Made by a program: the position numbers and the translations under genes. Under the pieces are notes generated by a model. That model saw only the letters and a program-made list of their open reading frames with translations. It was not told the DNA's origin and did no database searches. Shown one piece after another: positions 16,330 through 54,900 of a stretch of DNA of 64,000 nt. Every line of letters starts with the position of its first letter. Within the stretch, counting starts at the first letter, position 1. Source of the stretch: Lepidurus packardi (lineage: Eukaryota > Arthropoda > Branchiopoda > Notostraca > Triopsidae); the NCBI GenBank assembly GCA_023053545.1, contig JAKZAN010000004.1, positions 11,036,001 to 11,100,000 of the forward strand, written 5' to 3'.

Positions 16330-16622
16330 TAATACAGCGAAAGGTTCATCCCAAATTTCCTTTGTATGCAAATAAACTGTCGTGTCACTTTCGGCATTTA
16401 AATCTCGCGCTTACATTTCAATTTGTCAGACATATCCATCGCAAAATCAAAGTCTATCCCATTACTGTTTCGATCCGATACCAACTTTGTTTACATCTCC
16501 TATACATTGCAACACCTAACTAATTGGTTTCACGAGGTTTTCCGTCACCAGTACGTGCTGCCACCTAGTGACGCCACACTTTACTAAAAATATGCGTACC
16601 ATTGCACATTTATTTTTAGCAA

Positions 16623-17598
16623 ATGTTTCTTGAAGTAATCACCATTGTCTTTAAGTTTTTATATCTTACAATATAACTGTGTATTCTTGCGACCACTGTG
16701 CTTATAATAGGCTATTTCAACTTATTTTCATCTCATTTTCGTCTCATTTTCACTTTTTAGGATGAAGAGGGCTTTATAAAAGTTTCCAAGAAAAAAACCG
16801 CGAAACGGAAGATCGTTGTCCACCATCAGTTGCATACAACTAATTCTTTAGAAGATTTTGATTCAATCGTCAAGTACTTCAAGCTCATTTTTCAAAGAAA
16901 TAACCTAACAGCGAATTTTGTGTAGACGGCTCGAAAAGTGTGTTGTAGAATTACGTTCCTCTGAGTTTCTAACTCGTTTCCTGGATCTTTTAGATCGTCA
17001 GGTGCCCTCTTCGTTTAGCGAAATCGTCTGTTACGGCCTAGGCCGATTCTCAGACTGCAAAGTAGCCCGTCTCCAGTGTGCTTTACTCCTAATCCTGCAA
17101 AGCCATCTCTCGCACAATATTCTTGTTTTCGACCCGGTCTTTACCCCCGTCGAAAAAGCCGTTCTCCAGCACCTTAATATCCACCTTATCTTAACCAACG
17201 AAGAAGGGAAACGACCGGTAGCTCGAGAAGGCTCCTTTTTCATTCTTCCCCATTGTCCAAAACAGTTAACCAACAATTTGCTATACGCCAACTGGTCTCT
17301 CGAAGCCCTCAATAGCAGTCTTATACTAAGTAACAGCTTTAGCCACATCGTCGAGTCCACCCCAGCTCGGATCCTCAAACAAGAAGCTCCTCATATCCTT
17401 AAAATTGGCCCCTACGTTCAAGAAACTGCCCTTCCCAAAAACGTCTTTCATTTAGACGACGTTTTCAACCATTTATCCTTCCATTCCTTCCCATTGTCCA
17501 ATTTCTCTTCTGTAGAAGACGACTTCTGGCTAGATAACTCCGAACCGGACTACTCCGAGACTTTCTCCGAAGAATTCGTCAAACTGCAGCTTCATTAA
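16623..17598 (+). CDS. SRRD: SRR1-like domain protein
   Basis: Exons 16623-16634, 16761-16873 and 16926-17598; 265 residues. The core is the SRR1 domain: IVCYGLGRFSDCKVARLQ, VFDPVFTPVEKAVL, NEEGKR, then FILPHCPKQLTNNLLYANWS and ILSNSF, matching the order in human SRRD and plant SRR1. Known role: linked to heme-dependent and circadian regulation, biochemistry unclear. The 12-base first exon (MFLE) was inferred because exon 2 starts after a strong acceptor and needs an upstream phase-0 ATG; GAA then GTAATC at 16632-16640 provides one. That start is tentative. The stop at 17596-17598 is only 16 bp before the FMC1 ATG and no AATAAA lies between. Confidence 0.88.
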
Positions 17599-17614
17599 AG
17601 CTAACTGAAAGAAA

Positions 17615-17920
17615 ATGAACAGCCACCAATTAATACGTTCATTACTTCACGAGTTACGCACCCTAAGACCTGACCATCGCTTAAGGAACACCCCTTCCGC
17701 CAGTTATGTCTTGAATCTCTTTCGCAAACACCAGGTCACTGGCGAGCTAACCTGCAAAGCTGAAGAAGAAATGAAACACTTGGCTTCCACCTACACAACG
17801 TATTTACATAGCAGTCGGCGATCTGAGCAGTTGAGAAGCGAATATAATGGGCGTGGCGAACGCACTGTCCAGGAAACTGCTTCCTTAGTGGGCTTTAAAC
17901 TCCCCCACGATCCCAAGTGA
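17615..17920 (+). CDS. FMC1: ATP synthase assembly factor FMC1 homologue
   Basis: A single uninterrupted exon of 101 codons. It matches the FMC1 (C7orf55) family along its length: LIRSLLHELR near the N-terminus, FRKHQVTGE in the middle, then RSEYNGRGERTVQETASLVG and FKLPHDP at the C-terminus (human has EFHGKGERSVEESAGLVG, LKLPHQP). Known role: mitochondrial matrix factor required for assembly or stability of complex V (F1 sector, with ATPAF2/Atp12). The gene lies 16 bp after the SRR1-like stop and ends 62 bp before the POMK start. This leaves no room for a conventional promoter, which suggests a shared transcript. Confidence 0.95.
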   Translation: MNSHQLIRSLLHELRTLRPDHRLRNTPSASYVLNLFRKHQVTGELTCKAEEEMKHLASTYTTYLHSSRRSEQLRSEYNGRGERTVQETASLVGFKLPHDPK

Positions 17921-17982
17921 AGTCGTAGTTCTTATCTAATATGAATAGAGTTGTAGAGAACGGTTGAATTTACGTTTTAAAC

Positions 17983-18888
17983 ATGAAATCTCCCACAATT
18001 GTGCTAGTTTGGTGCCTCTTAGACATAGTAATGGGCAAACTTTGTCCAGATGGGATGTTTTGGTGGCCTCAAGGCGGAATTTGCCATTCTTGGCTAAACT
18101 GTGAGGATATGGCGGATTTAAAGGTTGGAGATTTGGTAGGATCTGGCGCTGTGAAGGCTATTTTCAAAGCAGAGTGGAAGGAATACGAGTTGGCGTACGT
18201 GGAACTGTTGAATGATGAATTTGAAGCCGATTTTTTGCACGGTTTGCGAGTTCTGAAGTCGCTTCAAACTAGCGATCTAGTGGTAAAGCTTAGAGGGGTT
18301 TGCGAGTCAAAGATGGTTTATTTAACCGAATATCATGAGTTGGGAGATGCTCGTAATATTCCGCGAGTTTTGAAGGATTCTGGGCCGGATTTTGACCGGC
18401 CGGAATTTCGTTTAGGGTTATGTGCTACCTATGCGAGGATTTTAGCTCAGTTACATGAAAACCGGATGGTCATGTGTGATTCCAATAATTTACAAAAGAC
18501 CTTAAGCCAGTACTTGGTTCGTAAAGCGGATTTAAAACTCTTGGTCAACGATTTGGACTCTGTAGCTGGTATGCGTGAAAATGAAGATAAATCTGTGATT
18601 CGATGTGGGCCAAACGTACTTGAAGGGGATTTTTTGGCACCTGAACAGCGAGGGGAACATGGTTTAAAACTAGGATACAATGAAAAAACGGATATGTGGA
18701 AGCTTCCTGCTGTTTGTAGCTATTTCCTCGGAAAGGAATTGAGTTCGTTTAGAGCTGTATTGCCACGTTTGGGCAAATTGCATCGATCCTGCAAGAACGA
18801 AGAGCCTAACTTGCGACCTAATGCGAAGCAAGTTGCTGAAGAATACGATTATATTATATGGACGCTTTTACATGACGAAGAACTCTAA
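17983..18888 (+). CDS. POMK: Protein O-mannose kinase (POMK/SGK196)
   Basis: A single-exon 301-residue protein. An N-terminal hydrophobic segment (IVLVWCLLDIVMG) acts as signal anchor, followed by the luminal CPDGMFWWP motif. The kinase-like fold has GSGAVKAIFKAEWKE (modified glycine loop), DFLHGLRVLKSLQ, the family signature MCDSNNLQKTLSQYL (catalytic-loop equivalent with Asp), VNDLD in place of DFG, and GDFLAPEQ. Known role: in the ER it phosphorylates position 6 of O-mannose in the core M3 glycan of alpha-dystroglycan. Length is near the human protein (350) minus its longer N-terminus. No intron is present. A variant hexamer AATACA lies at 18916-18921. Confidence 0.95.
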   Translation: MKSPTIVLVWCLLDIVMGKLCPDGMFWWPQGGICHSWLNCEDMADLKVGDLVGSGAVKAIFKAEWKEYELAYVELLNDEFEADFLHGLRVLKSLQTSDLVVKLRGVCESKMVYLTEYHELGDARNIPRVLKDSGPDFDRPEFRLGLCATYARILAQLHENRMVMCDSNNLQKTLSQYLVRKADLKLLVNDLDSVAGMRENEDKSVIRCGPNVLEGDFLAPEQRGEHGLKLGYNEKTDMWKLPAVCSYFLGKELSSFRAVLPRLGKLHRSCKNEEPNLRPNAKQVAEEYDYIIWTLLHDEEL

Positions 18889-40641: not shown

Positions 40642-43571
40642 TTAGTAATACGCTGGGGCGTTGTTGGAGGGTGGAGGGTGGTAATTCATGGCCTGAGGTA
40701 GCGCCGCAGGCATCATGAACATGGGCTGGAAAGCGTGCATTGGCATGGACATAGGGACGGGCACGTGTTGGATGATGACACTGGGCCTATTGGTAGCGGG
40801 CTGGACGTAGAAGTCATCGGCGAGGGCATCGTAAGCGTGCCGGCGACGCCGCATCAGTAGGGGCGATTCGGGCAGGGCGGGGAGGAGCGGAGCGCGTTGA
40901 GCCTGGTACTGGGACAGTGCTGCAAGCGTCTGTTTTCGGTGGGTCGGTTGGGCCTGGAGGGCGGCTTGGAGCGCCAGCGTGGCCGAACTTCCCGGTCGAA
41001 CGCGGTGTTCGCGCTCGAAGCACCAGCGGAAGCAGATGAAGTAGAAAAGTTCGATGCAAGCGATGACGCTGAAGCCGAGTCCAAAGCCCAGCAAGCCTCC
41101 CATGGCCGCTGTTTGTTATTATTATGTTTACGATGATTAATATTGTAGAATAGCATTCATTTTTCTTAACACATATATAAGAAAAAAGGAACTTACAAAC
41201 AAAATCTTCCCAGGCGTAGCGCACCTCCATTGAGTATCGTATGGCCACTTTGTCTTGGAAATAGACCGCGATTGGAACCATATTCTCCCTATGAGATAAA
41301 AAATAATCAGAAAACATTGGATCGTTAAATGTATATAACTGAAACTAAGTTAGCGCATGGGAAGAATTACCTGGCATAGGTTATTAAAGACTCTGCGCCT
41401 GGAAAATTTTCGTCATTATATTTAGTTGTATTGCGCAAACGGCGAAATAAAGCCGAGCCATTAAACGCTGTGCCAGGGAAAGGCGCAGAGGACATGTGCA
41501 CCTTGTATAGAACTTCCGAGCATTCCGGGTAACATTGTGGGCAGTATATACCCTAGCAATAATAACCAAAATCAATTCAGTAGGTGAAAAATTTAGGAAC
41601 GATTCAAACCACTCTGACCTAACTTACTTGGTCGCTACGGATATCAGCTGTAAAACGTTAGTATCAATGTATATTAGTAAACATGAGTAAACTTTTGAAA
41701 AGCAGCTCTTGAAATACTTACACAACTTTTTGGCGAGTTTGGGTAAATTATCCATACCACAGATAGTTAAATTGCTAGGCACTTGATGGAAATGAGGGGA
41801 ATTGTGGAATTGTTATGAAAGAGTTTTGTAAAATTTTCAGAGGAATTCTTCTCTACCTGGGTAGAAGTAGGGCCGGCATCCGATTTCCGTCATGGTTAAT
41901 TTGGTGATGCATTCCATGAGACAACGGGCTGCCGTATATTTCCTAAAATAATCCAGTTCGGCTTCACCGTCATAGTAACAAAGTCTTTTTTCAAAACGGA
42001 CGGAATTGATACTCGAGTCGGCTACGATACTGATGGGCTCCACTCCAATATTCATGGCACTATCCACTCCGAGGATAAAGCCACGGTCACTCACGTCCGG
42101 GAACTCCTCTTTGCCATGGAGCGAAACCTTTGAAGAAGGAAAGTAATTCTTACAAAATGCGAGTTCTCTTTGATCGTTTCAAACAGCATCGAAGTAAAAG
42201 AAAAAGGAAGGATGTACTTTAAAACCATCGAAGTTGGTCATGATGCTGCTGTAGTCTTCGCGGTTACTGTCCAGTAAGACTGTTAGACCGGCGAACCTAA
42301 TTTGTGGGAGTAAATTTTCAATTTCCAAAACTTCGTTTGGGTTTTAAATTTAAGATAAGGTTTGAGGAGAAAGACTTGCATTCCTGCGCTGTTGGTGTCG
42401 AGAATCTTCTTGTTTTCCGATAAGGGGACGAACATTTTTATGTCTGCCGAATCGTCGGAAGTCATGTTGGTAGAATTGAGACCCGTGTCGTAGTCTACAA
42501 ACGCTGCGCTAGCCAATAGTGCCGCTTTGCTTTCGTCGTAGAAAGCATCCCAGATTCTAGTAACCAAACAGTTTTTAAGGTATTCGGGCTTCTTAAGGCA
42601 AGTAAATGGAAGTAAACGAACGTCATGTTGACTTCCGGAATAAAGACGCGAACATTCTTAGCGTTGAACGAACAGCAATAACCGTCGTCAGTTGCCCGTC
42701 CAAGGAAAATGGATTGGCAATCGATAGGATCGTCTTGCCAGGTGCAATCTGCCAAGATTTCTTCACAAGGCGTTTGACACTGACGGAAAATTGGAAACAT
42801 TTTATTTCTGGAAAAACTAAACCTAGGCTAATTTTTAAGAAAGAAAAACCCTAAAAAAATGACTTAAATATTAATTAAATTTAACATTAAAATTGAAGCT
42901 AAATTTTAAGTCCTAACCCTAACCTTTTTCATGATGTACAGCATCTCGGTGACATTGATATTGCTATCTTTCATCAATTCTGCCAATCGGATGGTATCGT
43001 TAAGGAATTTGGAGGGTAAAGCCAGATCAGGCTTGGTCATGATTCGCAAAGCGAGTTTCATATCCTCGTATGTGATCGCATTATATCTACCAGCGAGATT
43101 ATCCTCTTTTAAATGAACCGGAAAAGGGATACGTTACGTACCGTGGATTGGTCAAAAGTTCTTCCAAGCGTATTTTGGACACTTTATTCACGTTACAAAC
43201 CGTAAAAGCGGGAAAAGGCAGTTCATTCAAAGGTACTGCTGTGGACTGGATGGACGTTAAAATCGGCGACTTTTCCCATTTACTCCAGTAACTCCAGCAC
43301 ATGTAGACAGCGAAACCCGAGGCGATCGAGACCAAAAGCACCCACATGATTTTCTCCACCTTGTGCGTTCCATCCTCGCCCACGTATTTGACCTGTACAG
43401 ATAACAGTTTCCCCCCGTATGAACTTCTCAAAGGATCAATGTTAAGAGAAAGCTGATTGAGAGAAAGCGGAAATGAAAACAATCAGGACTGACCCCGTGG
43501 AGCGCACTGTTGGCAGACCATTCTTTGCCCAGTTGGATGAACTTCGCCGTACTTTGTTTGCCTTTTGGCAT
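40642..43571 (-). CDS. DEG/ENaC (pickpocket-like) sodium channel subunit, gene A
   Basis: Minus-strand exons: 43571-43494, 43392-43142, 43086-42924, 42779-42622, 42556-42380, 42296-42218, 42127-41857, 41781-41722, 41647-41628, 41552-41371, 41288-41197, 41108-40642; 665 residues. Cytosolic N-terminus with the His-Gly gating motif (NSALHGVKYVGE), then TM1 (IMWVLLVSIASGFAVYMCWSYW). The Cys-rich ectodomain includes FPAFTVCNVNKVS, GYCCSFNA, CLMECITKLTMTEIGCRPYFYP and CPQCYPECS. TM2 carries the selectivity Gly-x-Ser (GLGFSVIACIELFYF). A Pro/Gln/Met-rich cytosolic tail of ~110 residues includes RRRRHAYDAL. Known role: trimeric amiloride-sensitive Na+ channels for mechano-, chemo- or fluid sensing. 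One exon is only 20 bp. The 42297-42379 intron uses a GC donor. The ATG was chosen because gene C conserves it. Confidence 0.92.
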
Positions 43572-44333
43572 AGCGAAGAACAACAACCCTTCTTGAACTT
43601 CTTCAATGCCCCACCGATCATACAAAACGTTGCTACTTTGGAAACTACTTTGTAATCCGATTTTGGAGCTCCAGGAAGTGTCGGTTGAGCAGCTAGGAAG
43701 ACTCCCTTCTAAGTGTACCAGCTCTGCCTATCGAGTCTTTTATCCTGGCTAACAACAGTGTGAAACTCATTTTTTCATCCTCTTGTGATGTTATAGTAAA
43801 TAAAAGGGATGAAATTCAGGTGCATAGGTTCCCTGGTGACCCGAATGCTAATGTGGGGACTTTCATCCACTGTTATTCTTGATTAACAACCGCCTGACTC
43901 ATTACAAGGCCAATTTGGAGTCAGTAGAGCGCACTCACACGCACTCTGGCCTATCGTGAGTTCCTTTTCCTGCTGAATTAGAGCACCCTATAAAATATTA
44001 TGCGAGATACACCTCACCTCCTTATTTGTGTAACTACTGTATGCTGTTTTCTGCGAATACATTTTTATTTTGGGGGGGTCAGCTTTAGAAAAAGGGTCAA
44101 CTGTGTTCGACTCAATTATTCTTCTCGTTCATGAAGGTGAAAGATTGAAGAAACTTGTTCTAGGAAGAGAATTCAGTCCCTTTTTAGGGTGGACAAGGGG
44201 ATTTTGAATAATTGAATAGCGCGTGAGAAGAAGAATAAAACGCAGTGGTACAGGGTCCATTTACCGCAGTACAGCAAAAGGATAAAAGTGTCGGAATGGC
44301 TGACGAAGATGAGGCCCAATTGTCTTCCCCCTT
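43572..44333. other. Spacer between channel genes A and B
   Basis: Upstream region of gene A and 3' flank of gene B. Short stretches resemble the spacer between genes C and D: a GGGATGAAATTCAGGTGCATA-like block near 43808 matches one near 51250, and GCGTGAGAAG with nearby GGAATGGCT near 44220-44300 matches 51690-51740. The flanks were therefore duplicated along with the genes. Confidence 0.55.
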
Positions 44334-46921
44334 TTAGTTTCCCTCAGGGTCAGTCATCCAGGTGGGAATCATTGGGATCGAGGTCACGATCGGCAGATGG
44401 ACCGGTTGGAGGAAATAGGCTGTAGGCGTGGCTTTGAGGTGGCCTGTGTAAGGCGTCGGCATGATTTGGTAGGTCCTGTGGCGCCGATGACGGAAAAGGG
44501 TGGCAGCTGAGGGAGCTGATGGGAATGATTCAAACGCCGCGGGCTGTTTCGGGGTTTGAGGAAGTGATTTCGGCAGACATTGACGGATTCCGAAGAAATA
44601 AAAACACTCGAAGACTGTTATAACGCTGAAACCCATGCCCAAGCCGAGAATTCCCCCCATAGATGCTATTGAAAATACAATTTTAATGTTTACAAAATTT
44701 AAGGAACCGTGAAGGAAAGGGAGTCGGACAAAAACTGAAGTTGAACTATTTGCGGAATTTCTCCTTACCTAGGAAATCATCCCAGTGATAGCGAACTTCC
44801 ATCCTGTACGCCATGCAGGTCGCTTCCTCGTAATAAAGGGAGAGGGAGACTACATTTTTTCTGGAATTATTTCAGAATTGACTTTTATGAGAAATGACTT
44901 TATTGGCTTGTGTTGGCTAGTAGTTATGAAAAGACATCGACTCACTTGAAGTAAGCTTCGAAAGTACTGTTGTCCATAAGAAGGTAATTGGAATGACTGC
45001 GAAGCTTTTGGGCTAGTTCAGTGTCGAAGAAGTTCTGTCCAGGGAAGGGCGCTCTGGACAAGCGATACTCGTAGATAGAATTGCTGCAAGTAGGCAAGCA
45101 TTCAGGGCAGAGGTTTCTTTTATGGCGGGACCCTATAGGATATTTATTTAGAAAGTTAACGCCAGGCTTTTGTTATAAACCAAGCGTTACGGAGAATCTC
45201 AGCCAGCTTTGGAAGTTGCTCGAAATCGCAGATCTTGTGGGAAATATTGACTTTGGGGTAAAGAAAAATAGGAGTGAGCAGACTTGGCGATTGTTTGGTA
45301 GGTAGATTGCCAACCTGGATAGAAATAGGGTCGACAGGAAATGTTCTTCATCATGAGGCCGGTCAGGCAGTCGAGGAAGCAATTACTCGCCGAGTAGGAC
45401 TTAAATTCCTTCAATTCTCGCTCGCCGTCCACGTAGCAGTTACGGGAACTTAAACTAACGGTCCGAACGTCCTCTCGTGCTTTGACTACGCTGCACTGAA
45501 TTCCGACATGGACTTGGGAATCGAGGCCGATAATAAATCCGCGTTCGCCCACGTCAGGAAACTCGATAGGATCATGTAATAATAGCTTTTTTTTAAGGGA
45601 AATGAAGAAAACGATCGAAATATTTTCTTATTTACTATATTCTTATTTAAATTTTATATAAGAATATTCTGAAACGATGGAGATTAAGTTATCGGAAAAT
45701 TTTCAGACGGATGGAATTTACCTTGAATCCATCAAAGTCACTCGTAGTCACGGAATAATCGTCAGTTCGACCGTCGAGTGTGATAGTCAGGCCTAGCGAA
45801 ATCACTTCACTATGTGAAAACTGATGCAATAGACTAAAGTACCAGCAAAGATGCCGGCTGTCTGGGAATCCCGGTACTGCTTCTCTTCGTTCAACACGTA
45901 GTCCGTCGAAAGGCTGATCCTCGCACTCCGGAGGGGCAAGTTAGGCGTTGGCGTTGTCCAAGTACCAAGGAAGACTTCCCAGTCACTTTAAAAACAAAAC
46001 AAAAAAAAATGGTATTAAATGCCAAAGAAAATTATGTTTTTTTTATGTTGCGTACGTTTCATTGATCTGAGGGATAAACATTTTGGTTTCTTTGGCATTA
46101 AAAGTGCAGGCGTAACCGTCATCCGTTAGGCGACCGATAAACAAGTCAGAGCAATTAAGATCCACGCCCTTCCATTCGCAGTGAACGATAATTTCATCGC
46201 ATTCCACTTTCGTCTAAAATTTTACGTAGAATAAATACTCAATACTTAGAGGACGTAACAGTAAATCACTTTTTTCATTATGTAGAGCAGATCAGTGACG
46301 TTAATTTGCGAGTCTTTTAGTTTCTGCGTTAACCCAGGTACTCGGCTGGCGTTGACATCGTCCCGGATGAGCTCAGGAATGGTCATTAGCTTCAGAATTA
46401 ACGGCAAATCAGCAGAAATGTTCTGGTACCTAAATTCAAATGAATTAAAAAGTAAGTAAAACGTTGATTCATCTATTCCTGTGAGTTTGAGGTTTTGAAC
46501 CACAATTCTTACTTGGGATTTTTCATAATAGTCTCGTTTAGTTTCTTCTTAGAGAATTTGTTGACATTGCAGACAGTAAAGGCTGGGAAGCTAATGCTTG
46601 TCAAAGGAGCGTTGGTGGAATCGAACGAGGTAAGCAAAGGTAGATCCTTGGATTTATTCCAGTAGGTCCAACACATGTAAACCGAAAAACTAGCTGTTGC
46701 AAGGCACACGACAAACCAAACCAGTTTCTCTGCTTTGGTTGTCCCTTGCTCGCCAACATATCTGAGCCTAAATGGAATAAACAGGGAAAATGAGGATCTG
46801 GAGTTCTTTATTTTTGTTTTTTATTAATTTCTTTATTTTACCCTTGGATGCCAGTATTGGAAAAGAAATCTTGGATATTAGTCGTAAATCTCGTGCACGC
46901 CTCCTTTCTGGACAGTACCAT
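44334..46921 (-). CDS. DEG/ENaC (pickpocket-like) sodium channel subunit, gene B
   Basis: Minus-strand exons: 46921-46842, 46767-46513, 46429-46270, 46213-46056, 45985-45843, 45792-45722, 45585-45315, 45250-45191, 45132-44946, 44860-44769, 44665-44334; 602 residues. TM1 is WFVVCLATASFSVYMCWTYW. The ectodomain includes SFPAFTVCNVNKFS, GYACTFNA, CFLDCLTGLMMKNISCRPYFYP and CPECLPTC. TM2 has the Gly-x-Ser filter (GMGFSVITVFECFYF). The position of the conserved His-Gly gating motif reads Gln-Gly (NTGIQGLRYVGE). The 20 bp mini-exon of genes A and C is fused with the next exon here, and the tail is shorter (~75 residues). It is clearly diverged from A and C, so it is an older paralogue. Confidence 0.9.
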
Positions 46922-48050
46922 TGCCTTGGGAGAAACTTGTGATCTTTGTGTTCACGTGTTTAGGAATGCTCGTGAAAGAAAACTAACTAGGCCGCGTTTA
47001 GGTGAGTCGGCTTTAAATGAGTTCCCTTGGACATCCCACGCCCCAAAAGGGATACAAACTTGGGTAATGGAAAACGGGGGCAGAACCCAAAAGTCAAGAA
47101 GCACTAATGGATTCCTCACCTGAAAAATATGGCATTCGCAAGAAGAATATTGTTTTCCGTGTTCAAAGCTGTTGGGCTCGATTTTCTTTCGAAAACTGGA
47201 TCGATATCAGAGTTAATTGGGTTCTTATGTGAGTTTTACAGCCTGCTACGACTAGAGCAGTACGAGCGAAGTATCAAGTAGGGTGTTTCCAGCTGTTTAT
47301 TGGCTGAGTGAAACCGAAGAGATGGAACGTGTCAAGCAAATTAAGAGGACAGTCGGGGGTAGCTTTATTATGAGTACTTTACTGGATCTGCGGGGTGCAC
47401 AGTACTAGTCTTCTAGGCTATGATAGTGCGTAAAACCACTGATGAAGGATCTGCGTAAAACCACTGATGAAGGATCTAAGAAGGCGTGGTAGATCGATGC
47501 TTGGCGTTGTTGGTAAAAAGCCAGCGGGAGCTGGATCGACTGCATCATAAAGCCCCGTTAGGGTGGCCTGGAGCCATGTAGGGAAAAGGAGGATCTCGCG
47601 GATCAGCTGGACCGGCCGGTACCCGCCAGAACGAAGGCTTGGCAACGGCGGGTATGTAGCTGTTCACATTTCCAGTTTCACTAGCGTGGTTTAAACTATC
47701 TCGGGGATCAGCAAGGCAGTGGCTGATGTAGTTTTGGAGATGTTACAGGAGAAGCCGTGGACAGGATTCGGATAATTCGTATCGCTGAGACGAGGCAAAG
47801 TGGGAAATCGGAATGATTCGCTCGCCGTAGACTGATTCCCATTCCAAGCGGATTGGTGGAAACAATGACAAGTTGAGCTCTGAGGCGTAGTTTGAAGTTT
47901 CTGAGTTATACGAAGTTTTCAAAGAGTAATAATGGGAATTTTTAGGAATTTTTGTATATGGGAGGTGAAGATTAGAAAATTTAGTAGATTTTAGGTGGGG
48001 TAACTTGAATTGAAAATATTTGACTTTGGATGGAAATAAAGTGAAAAGAG
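46922..48050. other. Spacer between channel genes B and C
   Basis: Holds a degenerate channel exon (47410-47700) and a 25 bp perfect tandem duplication (unit GCGTAAAACCACTGATGAAG...) at about 47428-47478. The remainder is presumably the promoter of gene B and 3' flank of gene C. Confidence 0.5.
47410..47700 (-). pseudogene. Decayed C-terminal exon of a gene D-like DEG/ENaC paralogue
   Basis: On the minus strand this segment aligns by eye with the end of gene D's last exon. Shared blocks are the GTACCGGCCG and GAT..CC..C region, then CAGTCGATCCAGCTCCCGCT and TACCAACAACGCC. In gene D these encode VPAAP and IQSIQLPLIVYQQRP; here a frame reads MQSIQLPLAFYQQRQ. A frameshift and a stop separate the two halves, and no upstream channel exons precede it in the right place. 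Confidence 0.7.
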
Positions 48051-50976
48051 TTATTGCCAGGTGTAAGGTGGATTGTACGCCATTGGCTGCTGTAAAGAAC
48101 TAGGCATCATGAACATGGGCTGAAAAGCAGGCATAGGCATAGGTATCTGGACCGGCACTTGCTGGACGATGAAATTCTGCATATTGGTTGGGGGCTGGGC
48201 GTAAAAGTCGTTGGGAAAGGCGTCGTACGTGTACCGACGCCGCCGCATCAGCAGTTTGGGCGAATCCGGCGGCTCGGGCATCAGTGGAGGACGTTGAGCC
48301 TGGTACTGAGCCATTGCTGGCGGCGGTTGTTTTCGGTAATCAACCGGCTGGGCCTGGAGGGCGGCTTGGAGCGCCAGAGTGGCTGAACTGCCGGGTCGAA
48401 CGCGGTGTTCACGCTCGAAACACCAGCGGAAGCAGATGAAGTAGAAAATTTCGATGCAAGCGATGACGCTGAAGCCGAGTCCAAAGCCCAGCAAGCCTCC
48501 CATGGCCGCTGTTTGTTATTATTATGTTTACGATGATTAATATTGTAGAATAGCATTCATTTTTCTTAACAAATATATAAGAAAAAGGAACTTACAAACA
48601 AAGTCTTCCCAGGCGTAGCGCACCTCCATCGAGTATCGCATGGCTACTTTGTCTTGGAAATAGACCGAGATCGGAACCATATTGTTTCTATGAGAAGAAA
48701 AGTCAAGGCAGTGGATCCTTAAGAATATACAGTTGGAAGTAAATTTGTAGTAACAGGAATTACGCGGCGTAATCGATAAAAGCGTTTGCATCTTTAAATT
48801 TGTTGCTATTATAATAAGTTGAATTTCTCAAACGGCGAAATAAAGCGGAGCCGTTAAACGCTGTGCCAGGAAAAGGCGCAGAGGACATGTGCGCTTTGTA
48901 TAAAACTTCAGAGCATTCCGGGTAGCATTGAGGGCAGTACGTATCCTAGCAAGACAAGAATTCGTTAATTGAAAAGTCTAGGAAGGATTGAAACAGCCCC
49001 GACCAAACTTACTTGTTTGCTTCGAGTCTCAGCTTTATATTGTGATGAAATAGGTCAAAATTTATTAGTAAAATACATACCACATTTTTTGACAAGCACT
49101 CGATTTGAAAATACATACACAGCATAGTAGCGAGTTGGGGTAAATCATCCAGACCACAGATTGCGAATTCACTAGGCACTGGATTGAGAAGAAGACTTGG
49201 AATTTTGTTCCAAATTAAGATAGGAATTTAATGCTTTTACCTGGGAAGAAGTAGGGTCGGCATCCGAGTTTTGACATCGTTAGTTTGGTGATACATTCCA
49301 TGACACAACGTGCTGAGGTATATTTTTTGAAATAATCCAGCTCTATTTCACCTTTATAGTAGCAAAGTCTTTTTTCAAACCGGACGGAATTGATACTCGA
49401 ATCGGCATTCATAATGATGGGCTCCACTCCAATATTCATGGCACTATCCACTCCGAGGATAAAGCCACGGTCACTCACGTCCGGAAACTCCTCTTTGCCA
49501 TGGAGCAAAACCTTGAAGCAGGAAAGCAATGGCAATTCTTACAAAATGCGACTTCTCTTTGATCGTTTCAAACAGAATCGAAGTAAAAGAAAAAGGAAGG
49601 ACGTACTTTAAAACCATCGAAGTTGGTCATGATGCTGCTGTAGTCTTCGCGGTTACTGTCCAGTAAGACGGTTAGACCGGCGAACCTAGTTTGTGGGGTA
49701 AACTTTCAACTTCCAATACTTCTTTTGGCATTTAGAATTGAAGATAAGATGTGGTGAGAAAGACTTGCATTCCTGCGCTGTTGGTGTCGAGAATCTTCTT
49801 GTTTTCCGATAAGGGGACGAATACTTTTATTTCTGCGGAATCGCCGGAGGTCATGTTGGTGGAATTCAATCCCGAGTCGTCGTCTACAAACGCTGTGGTA
49901 GGCAATACTGCCCCTTTGCTTTCCTCGTACAAAGCATCCCAGTTTCTAGTAGCCAAACATACTTTTTCTTTCATTTGGGCTAAGTAAGAGATTCTTAAGG
50001 AAGGTAAGAAGTGTACTGACGTCATGTTGACTTCTGGAATGAAGACGCGTGCATTCTTCGCGTTGAACGAACAGCAATAACCGTCGTCAGTAGCTCGTCC
50101 AAGAAAGATGGATTGGCAGTCGACTGGTTCGTCCTGCCAGGTGCAATCTGCCAAGATTTCCTCACATGGGGTTTGAGCCTGAAAACAACTGTAGTCAATT
50201 TGGTCCCGTTTCTAAAATCTGACGGTGACGATTGAACTCAAGGAAAGTACATTTTCATTTTCATTTGGTTTTCCACGCATTAACTGGAATGCGGGAGCAG
50301 GCTTCATGCCTTTTGCTAATCAGTGTACCTTTTTCATTATGTAGAGCAGCTCGGTGACGTTGATATTGTTCTGTTTCATTAAGCTAGCCAATCTGATCGT
50401 ATCTTTGTGACTTTTGGAGACTGCAGCTAGGTCAGGCTTGGTCATAATTTGTAAGGCGAGCCTCATGTCCTCGTATTTGATTCCCTTGTATCTGTTAGCA
50501 CGACAATGCTCTTCAAATCAGCGGTAAAAGGGTTATATTACGTACCGTGGATTGGTCAAAAGGGGTACCAAGAGTGTTTTGGACACTTTATTCACGTTAC
50601 AAACCGTAAAAGCAGGAAATGGCACTTGACTCAGAGGTACCGCTGTGGACTCGATGGACGTTAAAATCGGCGACTTGTCCCATTTGTTCCAGTAACTCCA
50701 GCACATGTAGAGAGCGAAACCCGCGGCGATCGAGACCAAAAGTACCCACATGATTTTCTCCACCTTGTGCGTTCCATCCTCGCCCACGTATCTGACCTGT
50801 AGGGATAACAGTTTTCCCCCGGTATAAACTTTTCAAAGGATCACTTTTAAGAGAAAGCTGATTGAGAGAAAGCGGAAATGAAAACAATCAGGACTGACCC
50901 CGTGGAGCGCACTGTTGACAGACCATTCCTTGCCCAGTTGAATTAACTTAGACGTACTTTTTTTGGCTTTTCGCAT
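48051..50976 (-). CDS. DEG/ENaC (pickpocket-like) sodium channel subunit, gene C
   Basis: Minus-strand exons: 50976-50899, 50796-50546, 50491-50329, 50178-50021, 49945-49769, 49685-49607, 49511-49241, 49178-49119, 49032-49013, 48945-48764, 48687-48596, 48508-48051; 662 residues. Every exon except the last has exactly the same length as in gene A, including the 20 bp mini-exon and the GC-AG intron (49686-49768), so the two are close tandem duplicates. Motifs: NSALHGVRYVGE, TM1 WVLLVSIAAGFALYMCWSYW, CVMECITKLTMSKLGCRPYFFP, CPQCYPECS, TM2 filter in GLGFSVIACIEIFYF, and a tail with RRRRYTYDAF. Sequence between A and C is patchily near-identical, including in introns. Confidence 0.92.
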
Positions 50977-51926
50977 CGCGAAAACTCTCCTACCTCTTTC
51001 GAACGCTTCCACGGACTCACCAAACAAGAAAACTTATCTCTTGAGGACTGATCTGGGAGCTGACTTTCTGGTACTGGCGACAGTGATCTACCCTCCAACC
51101 CTTAAAAGTCTTCCTCAGACAGTGGATCACCTCCACTGCCCGACTCTTCCGATACTCTTGGATAGCAGGGTTGAATCTCTTTGTCGTTATATGCTCCGTC
51201 TTATGTTACCTGAGCCAGACAATCGTAATACATAATGGAAAGGAAAAGGATGAAAGTCAGGTGCGTAAGTTCTCTTGTGACCCTAAAACTAACGTGCGCG
51301 TCATCCGAAATTTCCTTCACCAATTACTATCCGAAGCCTTTTATGGGTCTTGGGTCATTATTAGACCTATATCCGCATGTTGGTATCTTTAGCTATACCG
51401 TCTATGAATAGTCAATTGCAGTACTGACTTACTAACGAATGTGAGAAACCAAAGTTCGACCCTTAGTTGGTTTGCTGTTTACGGTTTTGGGATGTACTCT
51501 TCTCTGACAATATATTCGTCAAAATTCTAGGAAAGTGCCAGCAGTTGTCTTAATTTATTTTTATATTCTTCTTTTTATTGACGAGGGAAAAGATTACATC
51601 GGAAATTCGTTTTCTCTTGAAAAGAACAGCGTCGGTTTAACAGTTTCTCTTAGCGCATGAAGAAGGGCACTTGCATATTGAGTGACGCGTGAGAAGTAAA
51701 ACAGGACATTCATATCGGAAAAAATGCGTTGGAACGGCTAGTCAGGTGATCTTTAATACTATTTCGTGTTCTTCGTTAATTTCGGGTACATTCAGCCGTG
51801 CAGGTGCTAATCATACGGATTGATGTCAGGATCGGCAGACGGACAGCCTAAAGGAAAGTTGACAGTATGCATGGTCTTTGGGAGGGTACAATAAGGCATA
51901 GGAATGAATGAGTGGATTTTGTGGAG
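50977..51926. other. Spacer between channel genes C and D
   Basis: No gene seen. Portions match the A-B spacer (see 43572-44333). It holds the gene C promoter and the gene D 3' flank. Confidence 0.45.
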
Positions 51927-54900
51927 TCAACGATGAAAGAGGCGGTCTGGGCGTTGTTGGTACACAATCAGCGGGAGCTGGATTGACTGAATTGTAAAAT
52001 CCAGTAGAGGGCCACGAGTCACGTAGTGGAAAGGATCGGCTGGGAGATCAGGAGGAGCGGCCGGTACTGCCAGGCGACGGCGGCGGTGTTGCTGTTCAGA
52101 TTCTAGTTTGACTAACGTGGCTGCAGCCGATGGGTGGTCTTTGGAAGGCGATAACAGCGTGGAGGAGGGATTAGCTTCTAAAGCTAAACTGGACGAACTG
52201 CCCGGTCGGGTGCGATGGGAGCGCTCAAGACAACAGCGAAAGCAGAGAAAGTATAAGACTTCCATACAAGAGATGAGCGAGAAGCCAATACCCAGGCCCA
52301 TCAGACCTATTTATGACAAAATGTGTTGTTTCCTAACGGCTCCCATATACCGTAGCTTATTGATGCGAAACAGTCACAGATGGCGCTGATGTTTGTTATT
52401 GTTTTGCCCAAGCCTTGCATAAAAATGTAAAAAAGAGATAAGTAGCTAACATTCCGGCAAGTTTTCAACGCTTTTGGTTTGGATCTGAAACTTTGCTGTA
52501 TGTTTCTGTTTTTACTTTCTTATGCAAGGCTTTCACAAAACAATAACAATCGCTAGTGCCATCTGTGACTGGTTTCCATCAATAAGCTCAGGTATACGGG
52601 AGCCGTAAAAGGTCACATTTCGAAATACATCCAAGTACTTCTTATGCCATTTGAAAACCTTAGTAAATGATGAGTAGAGAAATGAAACATAAACCAAGCT
52701 AGTGTAACTTAAGTTGTAAGAACATTAAAACGAGATTTGGTAAGAATACCGCCGAGAGCAGAGACGAAATCTTCCCAGCCATAACGTAGCTGCATTTTGT
52801 AGCGCATTCCCGTTTTCTCTTGATAATAGAGATTGATAGGGATCATATTTTCCCTTCAAACCAAAAAAAATTAGGAGGAAATCTTAAGGTTGTCTTATTA
52901 TATCTAAAGCAGAAAGATCCACAGGGAAGGACATATAAATCTTACGAGACGTATTGGATGAATGTGCCGTTTTGGTACATGGCAGAGTACCCAGGATTGC
53001 TTGCGACGAGTCTTTTGAGCAACAATGAACTGGAGAAAGCTTGACCAGGGAAAGGTGCGTAGGAGAAGAAGGGCTTGAAGTGGATGGCATTACAAGTTGG
53101 GGCGCATTTGGGGCAATAAATGTCCTGATCGGCACGTACTTCCGCTTCAGGACATTACCCGAAAAAAATATAAAATACATTAAACTGCGATCTTGAGTTG
53201 ACTAACTTGATCCAATTTACTTAAGAGTTTGGCAATGGCGGTTAAATTCGCGAGGGGGCACATGGGCAAACTATATGGAACTGAAAATCCACAAGAGTCA
53301 AAGTCTTAGTATTAATTAATGTTTAGTACATAAAAATAAAAATAATCCTAGTATTAATTAATGTTTAGCACTAATAATTTTTTTTTTTAGTTTAGCATTA
53401 ATAATTAGTATACCGTAAGTACATGATTTGTGTGCCAGTATTACTGCAAAAGTAAGTGAAGAAAAATGAAATCCCAACCTGGGTAGAAGTACGGGCGGCA
53501 GTTGTACCTTTCCATCATCTCCGCGGTTAAGCATTCCATGAGGCAGTTACTGGCCGAGTACCGGTCAAAGTAGTACAGCGGGTACTCATCTTCCATATAG
53601 CATTGGCGTTTGCTGAAATTCACGCCTCGTACGGCTGGATCGGCTGTTACTAGAATGCCTTCGACACCAATATTGATCTCAGAATCGGCGCCAGACAGGA
53701 AACCCCGATCACCCACGTCAGGGAAGTCATCCGAGTCGTGGAGCAAAAACTGTGTAAGGAAATCTTCATGGAACCTTGTAATGCACTTGAAACCGAAAGC
53801 GTTACCCGGAATCCGTTCACGTTACTCGTAGTGCCATTGTAATCGTCAATTTTTGCATTCAGAATCACGCTCAACCTTTCGAAAAATAGATAAGAAATGC
53901 AAGTCGGTGTAAAGAGAAGAAAAATTAAAAGTACGTAATAACTCGTTTACCCAGCGAAAATTCCTGCACTATTCGTGTTTTTCAAGGTAGCGTTGGTGTA
54001 ATGAATGGTGAGATTCTGAAAGTTGATAGGCGGGGGTCGATTCGGAAGAGTGTCATTCTTGGCTAATGCTGAGGCGTATCTTTCTAAATAATTTATCCAT
54101 GCACTGCAATTTGGGAAAATTTTTCGTTAATATTTTTCGTCTTTATGGAAAAGTTTTCGTTCAAATTTTTCGTTTTTTTGGAAATTTTCTTTCAAGTGTT
54201 TGGTTTTTTGGAAAAATTTTGAAATTTCGAAGACCTTCAAAAAATTCTAAAAAGTTTGAAATTTCGAAAAGTTTGAACGTTTCGCTGGAGTTTTACGTTT
54301 CATCTACGTAATTCAGGAAGCCTTGAACGTTGAAAGCGTTGAAAGAACAACAGAAACCATCGTTGGTGGCTCGTCCCATAAAGATCGATGAGCAAGGAAT
54401 AGGTTTATCTTGCCTAATTAACCCAGAGAATAATTCCAAATTATTAAGTAAAATTACTCGAGACGTGAGTGAGCCTATATATACCAAGTACAGTCGATGA
54501 GGATTTCATGGCACGGAGTCAACGTCTATGACAAGAAGCAAGAAGGTATGTGTCAGATCAAATTAATTTCACTTCACTTTCGTTTTAATTTACGCGTATT
54601 TTAATAATATGAAAGTTCAAGAGCTGCCAGGCAGTGTTCTGGGACTTTCTGGGAAAGCTCCGTTCGTTCCGGAACGGGAACGGAGCGGCGTTGCATCGAA
54701 AGTTGCAGTTAATTGAGCAGTTTTTTTCGCGAAATTTACCGTTCCGACCACGCCATATAAGTGCCATACAAGTGCATATATAATGCATGATTTTTTAGTT
54801 TCAAATTACTTGTATTAAGCATATAGTTCTTAAGTTAATTTTTTATGAAAGTATCGGATCTTTGAACGGAACTAGTTTTTAGCTCCGTTCCTGAACCAGT

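Follow-up and report, generated by a model that had tools for sequence, protein, structure and literature searches.

In the window analysed here, the whole 64,000-nucleotide stretch of Lepidurus packardi DNA, an SRR1-like gene, FMC1, and POMK follow one another on the same strand with 16 and 62 bp between them, which raises the question of how the second and third genes are expressed. Does one mRNA carry several reading frames, is a longer precursor cut into pieces by trans-splicing, or does each gene have a transcript of its own? The original prediction saw a candidate three-gene polycistronic unit and left the first two of these routes side by side.

Gene content and spacing of the locus

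We found the predicted arrangement to be exact: the three genes are intact, the SRR1 stop (17596-17598) lies 16 nt from the FMC1 ATG (17615), and the FMC1 stop (17918-17920) lies 62 nt from the POMK ATG (17983). The features of the locus are the following, all on the forward strand.

16592..16633, +: upstream ATG frame of 13 codons overlapping the SRR1 start, relevant only if it is in the mRNA leader and unspliced
16623..16634, +: SRR1 exon 1, encoding MFLE, with the weak start context CAA-ATG-T
16761..16873, +: SRR1 exon 2, open frame, GT-AG introns
16762..16779, +: mini-ORF MKRAL-stop, 5 codons, out of frame, with the sole ATG between the SRR1 and FMC1 starts
16765..17614, +: ATG-free stretch, including the 52-nt intron 2
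16926..17598, +: SRR1 exon 3, 673 nt, ATG absent in all frames, Pfam SRR1
17599..17614, +: SRR1-FMC1 inter-ORF gap, 16 nt
17615..17920, +: FMC1, 101 aa, with the strong start context AAA-ATG-A
17921..17982, +: FMC1-POMK gap, 62 nt, with an ATG (17941) and a weak poly(A) variant, AATAGA (17944)
17983..18888, +: POMK, 301 aa, own transcript probable

SRR1 has three exons and a CDS of 798 nt encoding 265 aa, and matches the Pfam SRR1 family with 144 bits. FMC1 matches Complex1_LYR_2 (27 bits) and 64 proteins, a good many of which bear the name FMC1 homolog, at identities of mostly about 45-56%; POMK matches a protein O-mannose kinase of solved structure in PDB (E 2.7e-54). One place was found for each of the three in the 108.6 Mb assembly, of which the window occupies C3:11036001-11100000, and hence FMC1 is presumably expressed from this locus. 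As expected, relatives of FMC1 were absent from the viral and prokaryote contigs scanned, and those of SRR1 from the viral contigs.

FMC1 and POMK are indeed intron-free, unlike their neighbours, introns being present in CCDC25, SRR1, and FRA10AC1. On the same strand the trio is accompanied by ELP3, CCDC25, and FRA10AC1, after which comes MGAT2 on the opposite strand. These neighbours were recognised by domain matches, and FRA10AC1 via the Lepidurus arcticus model P0001; the names ELP3 and CCDC25 are our reading of radical-SAM/GNAT and NFACT-R domains. The other gaps in this array measure 421 bp (ELP3-CCDC25), 293 bp (CCDC25-SRR1), and 273 bp (POMK-FRA10AC1), so that 16 and 62 bp are short even locally. 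Elsewhere in the window (40800-54000, minus strand) there are tandem amiloride-sensitive sodium channel genes (ASC, Pfam PF00858), all four pieces tested giving a match.

The closest SRR1 protein is that of L. arcticus (93% identity, P0002), followed by that of Triops cancriformis (62%, P0003), while the sole POMK match returned in the protein search was L. arcticus P0001 (90% over one third of the query), a model that begins at a methionine matching the POMK start. Both L. arcticus models in nr are fused over gene borders: P0002 joins CCDC25 to SRR1, and P0001 joins the start of POMK to FRA10AC1. The fusions are probably gene-prediction artefacts, able to mislead homology searches, yet they suggest that CCDC25 and SRR1, and likewise POMK and FRA10AC1, are neighbours in the same order in L. 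arcticus. In Triops P0003, the four residues at the start (MRVE ahead of DDQGF) equal in length those encoded by SRR1 exon 1 in the window.

Depletion of ATG between the SRR1 and FMC1 starts

The SRR1 CDS contains only two ATGs, at nt 1 and nt 14. From the second of these to the FMC1 start (16762-17615) runs an interval of 853 nt (genomic), which ranks first in length among 7,829 ATG-to-ATG intervals counted on the two strands of 264 kb (the runner-up has 751), and it terminates at the FMC1 start itself. When exon 3 was shuffled synonymously (5,000 shuffles, same protein and same codons), a mean of 3.2 ATGs was obtained against the 0 observed (P(0)=0.0052). The same procedure revealed no depletion in FMC1 (4 ATGs vs 4.7 expected) or in POMK (24 vs 25.7). 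In a second run, with 3,000 shuffles of eight coding pieces from the window, SRR1 obtained P=0.004; among the seven others, FRA10AC1 (174 nt) reached P=0.043 and six stood at 0.28 or more. The SRR1 ORF also has the lowest ATG density (0, the next being 4.1 per 673 nt) among 39 ORFs in the 264 kb, taken from stop to stop without overlap and with a minimum of 200 codons, a mechanical set in which not all are proven genes. The depletion covers the distance from the first start to the second and spares the second frame, as in a leaky-scanning dicistron.

Some observations temper these figures. Exon 3 is generally TG-poor, and its expected number of ATGs falls from 8.0 with independent bases to 3.4 under a first-order Markov model, our weakest control, for which P(0) is about 0.03. 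The 264 kb contain further ATG-free open stretches, of 115-167 codons; such shorter lengths are thus not rare, and only the full length of the one in SRR1 is exceptional. Both SRR1 introns lack ATG too, which selection on the mature mRNA would not demand, and near-cognate triplets do occur in exon 3 (CTG 10, ACG 11, TTG 6, GTG 5). Finally, the depletion was first spotted by reading the sequence and afterwards tested on this single gene.

Start contexts differ along the same path. A pyrimidine at -3 and a T at +4 make a weak context, and this is how SRR1 begins (CAA-ATG-T), as against AAA-ATG-A in FMC1, AAC-ATG-A in POMK, and AAA-ATG-G in CCDC25. FRA10AC1 begins with TCT-ATG-T or, nine bases further on, with AAC-ATG-A. 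A weak context is hence not confined to SRR1: of four other start candidates, A stands at -3 in three, and T in the first ATG of FRA10AC1. A weak first start followed by a strong second one is nevertheless what a leaky-scanning dicistron displays, as are two conserved, intact frames close together on one strand, and both are seen here.

From these sequence features, we consider it rather probable that a single mRNA carries SRR1 and FMC1 as two cistrons and that FMC1 is reached by leaky scanning. A scanning 40S subunit would meet the weak-context SRR1 AUG, where part of the ribosomes would initiate and make SRR1 and the remainder would go past. These may then translate the 5-codon mini-ORF and resume scanning, which would give them time to reload initiator tRNA, and they would encounter no further AUG until the strong-context start of FMC1, just beyond the SRR1 stop. 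Selection for such an AUG-free route would exclude AUGs from the SRR1 frame, in-frame methionines too. The mini-ORF itself counts against leaky scanning in one respect: its ATG, with A at -3, stands in a good context and would trap scanning ribosomes. The ATG at 16592, if in the leader, would likewise help ribosomes on to FMC1, unless removed by a 5' UTR intron with its end at 16619, whose acceptor scores only 2.0.

The same logic does not extend to the third gene. The prediction of one mRNA with several frames is supported by AUG depletion as far as SRR1 and FMC1 are concerned but not for POMK, since four ATGs (three within FMC1, one in the second gap) intervene between the FMC1 and POMK starts, and three-cistron scanning was rejected on that account. 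For POMK, a separate transcript that begins within or close to FMC1 is probable. As predicted, AATAAA is absent from both gaps; nor did it turn up in the parts scanned from the end of SRR1 to that of POMK, among them only a minor part of FMC1. Weaker poly(A) variants are present at 17594 (ATTAAA, overlapping the SRR1 stop), 17609 (AAGAAA), and 17944 (AATAGA), and with these variants only, an mRNA could terminate in the second gap or continue beyond it. Spacing alone does not show that there is no room for separate promoters, as had been argued, and a bacterial-type promoter scan is uninformative for an animal.

Alternative routes to FMC1

FlyBase curators have recorded 159 dicistronic gene pairs in D. 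melanogaster, most of which do not fit scanning according to PMC4528330, so that arthropod dicistrons are unsurprising in themselves while scanning-compatible ones are a minority. The same source reports monocistronic transcripts for one gene at 69 of the 159 loci and for both genes at 45 (PMC4528330), and a comparable situation can be envisaged here: a promoter inside SRR1 (somewhere around intron 1 or the beginning of exon 3) would yield a monocistronic FMC1 mRNA whose long, AUG-free 5' leader is exon 3, the SRR1 mRNA merely running through. This would account equally well for the depletion in exon 3. We deem it unlikely all the same, given that it requires a leader of about 700-850 nt and leaves the weak SRR1 start context as a coincidence.

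On a dicistronic mRNA, FMC1 could also be translated by reinitiation past the SRR1 stop or from an internal ribosome entry site. The short 16-nt gap would suit either, and the FlyBase curators consider that IRES use may be common, most fly dicistrons failing the needs of scanning (PMC4528330). Against this, the depletion extends 853 nt back, well beyond the vicinity of the SRR1 stop, and no unusual fold was detected around the FMC1 start (z -0.90, 17480-17640), so that a structured element there was rejected. Reinitiation after a frame of 265 codons is, moreover, rare, and we judge this pair of mechanisms very improbable.

Trans-splicing of a polycistronic pre-mRNA to a spliced leader, in the manner of nematode operons, has in our estimate a still slimmer chance. 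Gaps between the genes are short, and spliced leaders are reported in copepods (PMC4664967); as in nematode SL2 operons, genes without a functional link stand tightly packed on one strand (PMC1657053). Unlike in those operons, no evidence of a leader was found, the acceptor right before FMC1 is poor, and AUG depletion points elsewhere; depletion throughout SRR1 is not predicted by trans-splicing. Among the paper titles listed in the literature searches, none concerned branchiopod spliced leaders.

The two acceptors that had been proposed fared differently when scored with a matrix built from ten acceptors, itself weak (leave-one-out -1.7 to 7.4). For FMC1, CTGAAAG (17605-17611) was outscored by at least six other AGs in 17400-17614, and only some 6 nt separate it from the neighbouring CTAAC. 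For POMK, the AG at 17949 is fair (6.3 bits); it exceeds the cut for the top 5% (5.3) of the 3,959 AGs that the window contains, an unremarkable score with so many AGs tested. More favourable to trans-splicing is a good AG at 17516 within SRR1, the best in 17400-17614 (8.8 bits, top 1%, cut 8.1). This strong acceptor-like site, TTTCTCTTCTGTAG, lies in exon 3 at a distance of 99 nt from the FMC1 ATG and could permit an alternatively spliced FMC1 mRNA.

The vicinity of 5S rRNA genes is a common home of SL RNA genes, and none was found in the six 5S loci scanned, a weak negative. Equally weak is the lack of any match to Rfam SL1/SL2 genome-wide, a search with no working positive control that a branchiopod-specific leader would escape. 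Histone 3' stem-loops were observed at four of the six 5S loci scanned. Repeats combining 5S and histone stem-loops, with periods of about 4.7, 5.1, and 1.4 kb, occur at C2:2583800-2588800, C3:1315500-1321000, C4:2224000-2227500, and C9:11500-15900 (G000; L014-L017), and a plain 181-bp 5S array is found on C135 (L018).

Chance, that is, close genes with separate overlapping transcripts and an SRR1 that is ATG-free by accident, is hardly credible: exon 3 has a composition in which a complete lack of ATG is only moderately rare (Markov P about 0.03) and several insect SRR1 are Met-poor as well, which could be a trait of the protein in arthropods, but SRR1 ranks first among the 39 ORFs and first among the 7,829 intervals, and its ATG-free stretch stops where a conserved gene begins.

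Methionine-poor SRR1 and known dicistrons

None of the three notostracan SRR1 proteins, from the window, L. arcticus (exon 2 onward), and Triops, contains an internal methionine. Across ten named arthropods we counted 8 Met in 2,533 SRR1 residues, vs 34 in 2,058 in seven chordates (Fisher test, P 2e-6, ignoring kinship). The comparison is confined to named rows; 21 of the 38 SRR1 rows are unnamed, carry between 0 and 6 internal Met, and may include arthropods. FMC1 homologues contain 1.7% Met. Internal SRR1 Met number 0-2 in named beetles and sandflies and 3-8 in named chordates. Arthropod-wide poverty is not universal, as shown by Lasius (3), Tribolium madens (2), and P0020 (5); neither Lasius, the one named ant, nor P0020, the adjacent row in the tree, is clearly depleted.

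The low arthropod count would fit a reading, which we hold to be rather unlikely, of SRR1-FMC1 as an old arthropod dicistron in which leaky scanning keeps SRR1 nearly Met-free. Two further observations speak against a universal one. In Penaeus, FMC1 has alternative N-terminal extensions, so that it probably has 5' exons of its own there, and for the fly FMC1 gene CG34117 transcription-start data are presented in PMC3436798. The D. melanogaster gene is listed among intron-free genes (PMC4938639).

The proposed SRR1-FMC1 dicistron can be compared with known ones. In Drosophila stoned and Snapin (Wall et al. 2005), as PMC11892635 relates, the first frames are AUG-deficient and the second cistron depends on leaky scanning. 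SRR1-FMC1 resembles them in its AUG-poor first frame, its divergent start context, and its arthropod host; the genes are different, and reporters were used in Drosophila where we rely on sequence. Green-algal bicistronic loci, reporter-tested, combine a weak ORF 1 context, a stronger ORF 2, and AUG depletion before ORF 2, according to PMC11892635. They share with SRR1-FMC1 the contrast in start contexts, the depletion, and a short inter-ORF distance (14 nt in one synthetic-reporter locus), but the algal ORF 1 described there is relatively small compared to the 265 codons of SRR1, and in SRR1-FMC1 a 5-codon mini-ORF intervenes. A literature search of main texts retrieved no paper naming both SRR1 and FMC1, and among the papers listed there was no report of the pair.

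What would be new here is an AUG-poor first frame that encodes a conserved protein of 265 codons, the animal cases of leaky scanning known from the source cited above being stoned and Snapin. If the SRR1-FMC1 dicistron is real, one shared mRNA has shaped the amino-acid make-up of SRR1 in both Lepidurus and Triops, and the output of an ATP-synthase assembly factor would be tied to that of an SRR1-like protein by ribosome choice alone. Closely spaced gene pairs elsewhere in compact arthropod genomes can be examined directly, from sequence, for such ATG depletion and, should the dicistron prove to be an old arthropod one, methionine depletion in protein alignments would expose hidden dicistrons without RNA data.
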